In this document: positions 60,391-64,000 of the stretch, piece after piece
Numbering within the stretch: position 1 is the stretch's first letter
Layout of the letters: every line of letters starts with the position of its first letter
From: Rikenellaceae bacterium
GTDB lineage: Bacteria; Bacteroidota; Bacteroidia; Bacteroidales; Rikenellaceae
Length of the DNA stretch: 64,000 nucleotides
Direction of reading: 5' to 3'
Assembly (NCBI GenBank): GCA_015059925.1
Contig: SUZL01000001.1
Location: 362,093 to 426,092, forward strand
Program-made: the position numbers and the translations under genes
Notes under the pieces: generated by a model
The model's database searches: none
Seen by the model: the letters and a program-made list of their open reading frames with translations, nothing else
Told to the model about the DNA's origin: nothing

Positions 60391-61179
60391 ATGAAACGCT
60401 TATCTTTCGCAACAATGTTTTTAGCCATCGTGGCTCTACTTGGCTCGTGCCAGAAGCCCGCGACGGTGGAGGTTGTGGCACTGCAGGATAATCTGCAACC
60501 GCGCCTGATGCAGGCGGCTCTTTTTGCCGAGACTGCCCCCGAGGGTCTGATCGAATCGCTCGGACTGCAGGAGGGTGTACCCGCATCGGTTTGTGCTTTT
60601 ATGGTTAATACGCAAGATAAGCAGATTCTATTCGATGCGGGCAACGGCAACGACGACTCGCAGCTGTTGCCTGCATTGACCAAAGCCGGCTACACGGCCT
60701 CCGACATCGACTACGTTATGATTACGCATATGCACGGCGACCACATTGGCGGTATGACGCGCGATGGCAAGGCTGTGTTCGAGAATGCTACGCTCTACAT
60801 CCCCAAGATCGAGTACGATGGTTGGATTGCTATGGGCGAGGAGCGCTCGGCGCAGATGCGTGCAATGATTGCAGCGTACGGCGACCGCGTTAAGATCTTC
60901 TCTGCAAGCGACACCCTGCCCTGCGACGTGGAGGCTATCGCGGCCGTAGGTCATACACCTGGCCACACGGCATATCGCGTGGGCGATGTTGTGATTGCGG
61001 GCGACGTGATGCACGGCGTGGCTCTGCAGTTGGAGCACCCCGAGATTTGCGCTCGCTTCGATACGGATAAGGTAAATGCCGTAGCTTCGCGCAAGATGCT
61101 TATCGAGAAGGCCCGCACCGAGGGGCTGAGGATGTACGGTATGCACTTCCCCGCGCCTTATTATCTGGATTTGAAGTAG
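60391..61179 (+). CDS. MBL-fold metallo-hydrolase lipoprotein (lactonase-like)
   Basis: ITHMHGDHIGGM, VGHTPGHTAYRVGDVVIAGDVMH. Confidence 0.92.
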   Translation: MKRLSFATMFLAIVALLGSCQKPATVEVVALQDNLQPRLMQAALFAETAPEGLIESLGLQEGVPASVCAFMVNTQDKQILFDAGNGNDDSQLLPALTKAGYTASDIDYVMITHMHGDHIGGMTRDGKAVFENATLYIPKIEYDGWIAMGEERSAQMRAMIAAYGDRVKIFSASDTLPCDVEAIAAVGHTPGHTAYRVGDVVIAGDVMHGVALQLEHPEICARFDTDKVNAVASRKMLIEKARTEGLRMYGMHFPAPYYLDLK

Positions 61180-61195
61180 CACAGCTTTCGGCACA

Positions 61196-61242
61196 ATAAT
61201 AAAAGAGCCTGTCTGCAATTTGCAAACAGGCTCTTTTATTAT
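61196..61242. terminator. rho-independent terminator
   Basis: AATAAAAGAGCCTGTCTGCAATTTGCAAACAGGCTCTTTTATT. Confidence 0.85.
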
Positions 61243-61245
61243 CTC

Positions 61246-61368
61246 AAAAATTGTATAACAAGAGGGATTTTCAGGCTTGCGAAGCCCGAGAAACCTGAGT
61301 TTACTTTGACGTAAATGAGGATTTCGAGGGCGAGTATAACGCAGAAATCACCTTGTTTGACAATTTTT
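61246..61368. mobile_element. candidate MITE/structured repeat with ~24-bp imperfect terminal inverted repeats
   Basis: Left AAAAATTGTATAACAAGAGGGATTT; right (reverse complement) AAAAATTGTCAAACAAGGTGATTT; internal palindromes GGCTTGCGAAGCC and TTTACTTTGACGTAAA; no ORF. Confidence 0.45.
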
Positions 61369-61370
61369 AA

Positions 61371-63356
61371 TTATTTCTTCACCAGCAGAACCGCATCCGC
61401 GCAAATCTGTCCCGTAACATTTCCACGGTTGGTGAACTCAACGTATCCCTTCTCTCCGGTACGCAGGTCGTACTCGCCGAGCGATACCCACTCGCCCGAG
61501 GTCTGGCCCTTGATGGTGATCTTCTCCGAATCGATCACAACATCACGATCCGACTTTCCGTCGTTTACAACGAGCTCCATAACCTTCGATGACTCGGCGC
61601 GGCGGATATGGTAGGTGTAGATCGTGTAGCGACCATCGTTCTTAACCTCAAAGGGATAGCGCAAACGCTTCTCCGCAGCGGTCTTATCCAGCACAAGATA
61701 CGAACGACCATAACCGTTGTTACGCACGATACGCTGCCATCCGTCGGGCACCTCGAAATCTGCATCATCGACAACAACATCGGCAGGCGTGCCATCGAGC
61801 AGGGGATCCTCTTCGTACATACGCTGAATCTCCTTAACATCAACCTCCTGCACCTTTACACCAGCATCAATTGCCAGACACGCAGCCTTGGCGGCACTCT
61901 GGCCCAGAAGCATAAATACGGGCTCCATACGGATCGAGCCGTAGGCGATGTGGCTCGCCGAAAGGCATACGGGAACGAGCAGGTTGTCGCACTCCTCGCG
62001 CTTGGGTGTGATCGAGCGGTACGATACGTCGTAGGGCAGACCGCCGTAAATCTCGACATTACCCTCGTTCTTAACCATCTTAACACCATCCTTCTCGATG
62101 ACAATGCGCTGGCAGTTGTGCGAATCCATCGTGTAGGCCGCCATACCTACGCCATCCTCGACCGAGGTTACGTTGTCGCAGTTGGCCTGCGTCGTTACAT
62201 ACTCGCCCACCATACGGCGTGCCTCACGGATGTAGAGCTGCGGTGTCCAGTGGCCATACTCGACATACTCATCCTTCGGAAGTCCCCACGACAGCATCTC
62301 CTTGCGCAACTGCTCGGGAACGCGCTCATCGTTGCCGATGAACCACAGCAGGCCGAGCGTATAATCTTTGTGCGCCTCGATGATCTGCTGACGCTCCTCG
62401 TACGTACCCTCGGGGTAGCCGTAGTTCATACCGATCATATCCGACGAGAAGGGGCCGCGATTGTTGATATCGGTCTTGTTGTTGGGCATCGGGCTGACGA
62501 TGAAGTAGTCGTTGAGTTTATACTTCTTCTGCGCCTCAATCACGCGCAACAGCAACTCATAGCGCGACGCATCGTAGTTGGCAGGCTTCTCGATGGGGAG
62601 CATATTCTCGGGATCGCTCGTCAGGCAGATGCGGTAGTTGTAGGCCTGCACCTTCCTATCGCCCGATCCCGTCGCAGCCATCGTCTCGGGCGAGATACCC
62701 CACAGCAGACCGCTCGTCGGGTCGCCCTTTACGACGTAGGGATCGACGCCATCGACGAACTGATGCAAGTGCTGCATCTGAACGCCGTTGTGATCCTCGC
62801 CATATACTTTATTATCCTCGCGACCAACGACATAGCTAACGCCCGCCGCTGCCATCAAATCGCCCTCATACGAGCAGTCGATAAACTGCTTGGCGTAAAT
62901 CTCGTTCAGAGGCTCGCCCTTGACCTCCTCGAGGAAGATCGACTTTATCGTCGCGCCCTGCTTCTGCGCGCCCACGATGCGATTGCCGTAGAGCACCTCC
63001 ACAGCGCCACGCTCGATGTAGCCCTTGAAAATCGCCTCGGCCACCTTGGGCTCGAAGATCCAGCTCTCCAAAGTGCCGTACTCGGCACCCGCACGACGAT
63101 AGAAGTCGAGCGAGAGGCCCTTGACGACCTGCTTGTTACCGATGTCGGTCTGTCCCAAACCGCCCGAGGTCATACCTCCGAGACGGTGTCCGGGCTCGAC
63201 GAGCAGCACCGTTTTACCCTGCTTGGCTACGGCATAGGCCGCAATCACACCAGCCGACGTACCGCCATAGACGCACACATCATACTCTGTCTGAGGTTTT
63301 CCGCACGAGGCGAGCAGCATCACCGCCGCCACTGCAAAACAGATAATTCGTTTCAT
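61371..63356 (-). CDS. FAD-dependent oxidoreductase lipoprotein with C-terminal golvesin/xanthan-lyase-like domain
   Basis: YDVCVYGGTSAGVIAAYAVAKQGKTVLLVEPGHRLGGMTSGGLGQTD; C-terminal DGWQRIVRNNGYGRSYLVLDKTAAEKRLRYPFEVKNDGRYTIYTYHIRR. Confidence 0.88.
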   Translation of the reverse strand: MKRIICFAVAAVMLLASCGKPQTEYDVCVYGGTSAGVIAAYAVAKQGKTVLLVEPGHRLGGMTSGGLGQTDIGNKQVVKGLSLDFYRRAGAEYGTLESWIFEPKVAEAIFKGYIERGAVEVLYGNRIVGAQKQGATIKSIFLEEVKGEPLNEIYAKQFIDCSYEGDLMAAAGVSYVVGREDNKVYGEDHNGVQMQHLHQFVDGVDPYVVKGDPTSGLLWGISPETMAATGSGDRKVQAYNYRICLTSDPENMLPIEKPANYDASRYELLLRVIEAQKKYKLNDYFIVSPMPNNKTDINNRGPFSSDMIGMNYGYPEGTYEERQQIIEAHKDYTLGLLWFIGNDERVPEQLRKEMLSWGLPKDEYVEYGHWTPQLYIREARRMVGEYVTTQANCDNVTSVEDGVGMAAYTMDSHNCQRIVIEKDGVKMVKNEGNVEIYGGLPYDVSYRSITPKREECDNLLVPVCLSASHIAYGSIRMEPVFMLLGQSAAKAACLAIDAGVKVQEVDVKEIQRMYEEDPLLDGTPADVVVDDADFEVPDGWQRIVRNNGYGRSYLVLDKTAAEKRLRYPFEVKNDGRYTIYTYHIRRAESSKVMELVVNDGKSDRDVVIDSEKITIKGQTSGEWVSLGEYDLRTGEKGYVEFTNRGNVTGQICADAVLLVKK

Positions 63357-63912: not shown

Positions 63913-63914
63913 GA

Positions 63915-64000
<86 letters not shown>

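Follow-up and report, generated by a model that had tools for sequence, protein, structure and literature searches.

Background

Several kinds of short structured repeat are known from bacterial genomes. ERIC, RUP and Correia (NEMIS) sequences are palindromic, intergenic, MITE-like repeats of about 100-150 bp that occur in dozens of copies and are folded if transcribed; for RUP, movement by an insertion sequence (IS) acting in trans has been proposed. To our knowledge, these three are confined to a genus or a family, and the bacterial MITEs with conserved folds of which we are aware come mainly from single genera or families. The core of the element described here, in contrast, extends over an order, and almost all of its pairs covary (this comparison is by description, not by sequence). 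REP, BIME and REPIN sequences (PMC2817692, PMC3733652, PMC3116915) are also palindromes at the 3' ends of genes, with many copies and orientation rules, whereas the present element occurs in a genus without the Y1 (RAYT) transposase (0 of 25 genomes), is 123-146 bp long with a conserved interior, and has relatives with terminal inverted repeats (TIRs) and a probable target duplication. Of the two hairpins of the present unit, one (H1) looks like an intrinsic terminator of the bidirectional type and may function in that role. The other (H2) differs from such terminators: it is AU-rich at its base, its core is conserved, and it is dispersed within a repeated unit. A resemblance to ISNCY-family insertion sequences (NF033593 type, related to IS5) and their MITEs comes from the 146-bp units of one Bacteroidales genome (G150), of which the TIRs match those of a 1.65-kb ISNCY element and the flanks carry probable 6-bp TANNTA duplications. 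However, the interior of the present element is not derived from an IS but is a conserved covarying fold, and the Alistipes copies have other ends, with neither a duplication nor a partner IS seen.

The copy in the window

The window is the whole stretch of 64,000 nucleotides analysed here, from a Rikenellaceae bacterium (contig SUZL01000001.1); its relevant features are listed in Table 1. The element had been described, from the letters alone, as a 123-bp sequence with inverted ends, and the left arm does match the reverse complement of the right end (AAAAATTGTCAAACAAGGTGATTT) with 3 mismatches and one gap. Both of the interior palindromes read there (GGCTTGCGAAGCC and TTTAC..GTAAA) are present, and the element ends 2 nt from the stop codon of the FAD oxidoreductase gene (TTA, 61371-61373, minus strand). 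Two points of this sequence-only reading held in part. A terminator-like hairpin does stand beside the element, but an equivalent hairpin belongs to the repeated unit in recent copies elsewhere; that of the window may be specific to this locus. Likewise, the size of 123 bp holds for the window hairpin but is not always that of the whole element, the recent copies elsewhere including the terminator-like hairpin. The contig ends in a minus-strand 5S rRNA gene (window positions 63914-64000), which gives the local replication direction.

Table 1. Features of the element and its surroundings (positions in the window)
Feature	Positions	Strand	Remark
Structured repeat element (hairpin H2), 123 bp	61246..61368	+	Strand listed is that of the better-conserved fold
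5' arm (outer stem) AAAAATTGTATAACAAGAGGGATTT	61246..61270	+	Pairs 4-29 with 104-128 of alignment A1
Core (CAGGCTTGCGAAGCC...TTTAC..GTAAATGAG...TAACGCAG)	61272..61344	+	Sequence kept across Bacteroidales families; arms differ
3' arm AAATCACCTTGTTTGACAATTTTT	61345..61368	+	Complementary to 5' arm
Bidirectional terminator-like hairpin	61197..61241	.	Directly 5' of the element
Bearing gene: FAD-dependent oxidoreductase, Golvesin C-terminal domain	61371..63356	-	PF12831 and Golvesin_C
Convergent neighbour: metallo-beta-lactamase-fold protein	60391..61179	+	
End that a partner ISNCY/IS5-type element in this genome, G001, G065 or G046 would carry: GTGTCTAACAAG			

Copy number and distribution

A blastn search of the organism's own genome (2.09 Mb, Alistipes-type) gave 41 matches with 73-100% identity, so the element is not single-copy. 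A covariance model was built from 36 own-genome copies; it gave 65 matches in the same genome, 53 of them full-length at at least 89 bits, and the genome holds about 60 copies in all. With the same model, the copy number per congener genome ranged from 0 to 82 (82 in G001, 68 in G005 and 58 in G021, all of the same genus), and several close congeners had none. Matches at E<1e-7 were found in 34 of 149 sampled Bacteroidales genomes from about 30 families. In gut MAGs of Alistipes and Rikenellaceae, 112 stretches were matched, and the congener MAGs with exact matches were mostly from the ruminant hindgut. The earlier proposal of a MITE or dispersed structured repeat is thus supported by the copies in this genome, in congeners and in other Bacteroidales families: the element is short, non-coding and dispersed in many copies, and terminal inverted repeats are present in the window copy and in relatives. 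Filled and empty orthologous sites, closely similar copies at separate loci and, among relatives, TIRs that match those of a transposase element and have probable target duplications (all described below) also fit a MITE.

No match to the element was found in the phage, plasmid and viral-contig collections searched, no Rfam family scored above its curated threshold, and a limited search of the open-licence literature retrieved no description of the family. A match to Clostridiales-1 RNA (E=0.02 on a 301-base scan) was discarded, as it did not recur on 15 loci. A coding reading was also rejected, the apparent frame (..VNEDFEGERNAEITLLDNF and a stop) being broken by 1-2-nt indels in many copies.

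Some copies were rearranged. Four interior-deleted copies of the own genome (L138-L141, on C19, C19, C9 and C5) are 64-75 nt long, with the core gone and the paired outer arms kept. In four others (L135, L137, L142 and L143, on C4, C11, C2 and C23), an identical second structured repeat of about 70 nt (GGTTGCGTTTAAGCGAGGGCAGAGGGAGCTTGCTCACTTTGCCGAGCGTAGCAACC..) is nested at one position; sequences related to this repeat were found on both strands in many congeners (35 in G012). At L303 and L370, two copies stand in direct tandem, 2-4 bp apart and in the same orientation.

Fold and covariation

The fold is one long imperfect hairpin of 42 pairs. Among the own-genome copies, both sides had changed in 26 of the 42 pairs and 97.3% of cells were paired; covariation was 0.372 versus 0.159 after shuffling, and none of 500 shuffles reached the observed pairing or covariation. 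For a distant set (30 sequences from other Bacteroidales families), the figures were 40 of 42 pairs, 94.8% paired, and covariation of 0.650 versus 0.168 shuffled, all of which lean towards the model's structure, to which this alignment was fitted. Compensatory base changes were thus in excess of the controls. The kept core reads C.AGGC..CGAA....G.AGTTTACT....GTAAATGA....TAACG.AG, and arms of different types share no sequence. As the arms have been fully replaced yet still pair, with the core kept, a palindrome frozen by mere shared descent is excluded. The order-wide conservation of the core suggests that the fold itself is useful.

Such covariation might also arise without selection, by template-switch correction of a quasi-palindrome at replication: in a long palindrome, one arm can serve to correct the other, and the best match indeed lies in the outer arms. 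We consider this improbable. The hairpin retains conserved mismatches and internal loops, one of its G.U pairs is almost invariant (35 of 36), and there is a strong preference for G.U over A.C; correction would erase all of these.

The strand that carries the fold was judged by counting G.U pairs, tolerated on the folded strand, against A.C, their equivalent on the other, and the counts point to the strand that lies antisense to the abutting gene. The counts of G.U versus A.C were 38 versus 1 in the own genome (outer stem, geometric register), 73 versus 3 in congeners, mostly from two pairs, and 18 versus 5 in the distant set; with a Watson-Crick-only structure and no geometric register, the contrast was weaker (18 versus 7). 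An initial count of 111 versus 8 was discarded as inflated, because the folding program itself had chosen G.U pairs. The strand assignment is probable on these counts, and G.T pairs in DNA would give the same signal.

Placement and orientation

The stop codon of an opposite-strand ORF (at least 100 aa) lies near the 3' end of 41 of 57 own-genome copies, mostly at -7 to +1 nt. The bearing genes are mainly housekeeping genes, and on the other side of the copies there is usually a terminator-like hairpin. The type of stop codon was tried as a target and found not special (TAA 32, TAG 9, TGA 0; background 192/78/24).

On contigs with more than one copy, the majority strand of the contig carried 42 of the 45 copies (31.6 expected; 0 of 20,000 random draws as high). 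This orientation agrees with the rRNA direction at two contig ends and with AT skew, which together indicate that it follows replication, the bearing gene being co-directional; genes overall are split about evenly between the strands of this genome. On C13, C23, C15, C20, C11 and others, almost all copies of one contig faced the same way, tracking AT skew and rRNA direction and not gene strand.

Several mobile systems other than a DDE transposon have to be weighed here. Single-stranded-DNA elements of the REP/RAYT or IS200/IS605 kind are moved by a Y1 HUH transposase, and an element of this sort would likewise be palindromic, sit at gene 3' ends and take its orientation from replication. Y1_Tnp was, however, present in none of the 25 same-genus genomes, G001 with its 82 copies included, and the TIRs and probable target duplications of the relatives point to a DDE enzyme, so that this explanation is largely refuted and very unlikely. 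A retroelement that inserts beside terminators and depends on a reverse transcriptase, of the group II intron type or another, would fit the RNA-like fold, the adjacency to terminator hairpins and the replication-linked orientation. G001, G005 and G021, the copy-rich genomes, nevertheless lack any RVT_1 match, which refutes it there unless the enzyme lies outside PF00078, and reverse transcriptase content does not follow copy number; we give this explanation very little credence. The ends of Alistipes type 1 (GTCTAAC..GTTAGAC), which stand directly after stop codons, resemble the boxes of an integron attC site, on which a tyrosine recombinase would act. However, the AAC/GTT triplets vary (arms such as GAATAAAAAG and AGGGGACTTCTAAAAAT), the RYYYAAC / GTTRRRY boxes vary between subtypes, the stem runs on outside them, and no integron integrase scored over the cut-off in the 16 same-genus genomes searched; the attC reading is refuted and hardly deserves further weight.

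A more substantial rival concerns the function of the core. According to it, the core works as a structured RNA, whether as a 3'-UTR element, an antisense element or an insulator of transcription or termination. It would be selected at each gene end and would either be transcribed antisense to the bearing gene or act within read-through RNA, transposition only spreading it. The core is kept across about 30 families while the arms are fully replaced and still pair, several arm and TIR types carry the same core, G.U greatly exceeds A.C on one strand of the outer stem, and the copies adjoin housekeeping genes and terminators, all as such a function would have it. The distribution, on the other hand, is patchy, with absence from several close congeners and from most orthologous loci, so that the element is dispensable in those places; the strand preferred by the G.U count runs antisense to the bearing gene, in most cases behind a terminator, and no promoter was seen for it; the G.U count loses strength without the geometric register, and that of the congeners comes mostly from two pairs, as given above; and no Rfam family was matched above its threshold. 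We regard this explanation as a real possibility at somewhat less than even odds.

Mobility and extent of the Alistipes-type unit

Insertion polymorphism was seen at two loci. Of the 30 genomes read at the GPI locus, five have the element immediately behind the stop codon, with two unrelated arm types, and the remaining sites are empty; at the rnf/nqr-type locus, it is present in three genomes and absent in G010 despite 98% protein identity. The flanks of the empty sites are too diverged for a clean junction. G001, G065 and G046 carry near-identical units at different loci, which have the left hairpin and the 123-bp hairpin in common and unrelated outer flanks. The recent Alistipes-type unit is therefore about 165 bp long and consists of the terminator-like hairpin (H1) and the 123-bp hairpin (H2). 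In the Alistipes copies no target duplication was seen, and the fixed ends reach beyond the TIR box.

Complementarity between H1 and H2 (at least 8 nt shared) was at chance level in the own genome (1.9% versus 2.6% shuffled) and exceeded it only where a genome had recent units (33% versus 4%). A third Alistipes arm type (GAGGTTGAATAAAAAG..CTTTTTATTCAGCCTC) was found in G075, G056, G011, G003 and G044 (L124, L127, L275-L284), where the neighbouring hairpin has a matching box, GACTAAAAAG.

Ends and transposase in other Bacteroidales

Beyond the Rikenellaceae, the element has the form of a textbook MITE, about 146 bp in length: in other Bacteroidales the right arm occurs a second time at the start of the unit, which yields TIRs of about 20 bp (TAGTGTYYGTCYATAAWGTC). 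Sites of this TIR pattern numbered 91 in G150 and 79, 60, 59 and 57 in four other genomes, against 0 in the reversed controls of those genomes. The TIR-bounded units of G150 were 146 bp (13 units), 167 bp (4 units) and, in one case, 1,646 bp long; the last contains a 443-aa ORF for an ISNCY-family DDE transposase (NF033593, 332 bits versus a cut-off of 325; DDE_Tnp_1). An autonomous partner with the same ends was thus found in one other Bacteroidales genome. This ISNCY element has no core, and the MITE is therefore not a simple internal deletion of it. No ISNCY-type transposase was found in the roughly 0.84 Mb read of the 2.09-Mb own genome, nor, outside the single G150 copy, in 2.67 Mb of fetched loci. 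In still other genomes, the same core lies between different ends (AGGGGACTTCTAAAAAT, GTGTTTGCAAGAAAACG).

TANNTA was present exactly at both ends in 9 of 16 TIR-bounded units from other Bacteroidales (counted by eye), and these flanks are probably a 6-bp target duplication in the relatives. A duplication of this kind, often recreating a stop codon, may be what places the element next to stop codons.

Eight G150 contigs (C39, C57, C72, C77, C89, C101, C125 and C135) begin 40-100 nt inside the end TAGTGTCTGTCCATACAGTC..., suggesting that a second multi-copy full-length element may have broken the assembly at TAGTGTCTGTCCATACAGTC ends.

Interpretation

We take the window element, with a probability of roughly 0.7, to be one copy of a Bacteroidales-wide, non-autonomous MITE-type family with a conserved core and exchangeable arms, for which the transposase is supplied in trans. 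The arms would be the exchangeable, transposase-recognised ends of a long imperfect hairpin with a conserved core, and their TIRs would most likely be recognised by a DDE transposase of the ISNCY/IS5 kind acting in trans. Insertion would take place at AT-rich sites such as TANNTA, which would often overlap stop codons and the spacers between gene and terminator, where an insertion does little harm; the hairpin would then persist by selection for pairing on one strand. We infer mobilisation in trans both in general and in the lineage of the window, and adjacency to stop codons would presumably reflect the choice of target together with selection. It is our guess that the conserved core works at gene 3' ends, as an RNA or a single-strand fold.

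Several observations sit badly with the MITE explanation. No ISNCY-type transposase turned up in the stretches given above, the Alistipes units show no target duplication and have fixed ends that reach beyond the TIR box, the ISNCY element has no core, and the order-wide conservation of the core exceeds what a hitch-hiking MITE needs. The one-way orientation is unaccounted for by a simple DDE transposon. A bolder reading is that the core would be an undescribed, order-wide structured RNA or single-strand DNA module, taken up repeatedly by transposons with different ends and held in a fixed replication orientation at the 3' ends of genes on the leading strand, with selection acting on its fold there; it would then be a mobile regulatory 3'-end element and not a passive MITE. 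This is a tentative proposal, against which we would at present wager.

For the Bacteroidales, the element is an unannotated repeat at which MAG contigs break. One folded core is found across about 30 families of the order, carried between different transposon ends and with nearly all of its pairs covarying, and this makes testable the questions of whether the fold is of use to the host or to transposition, why it keeps to one replication orientation and why it stands beside stop codons.
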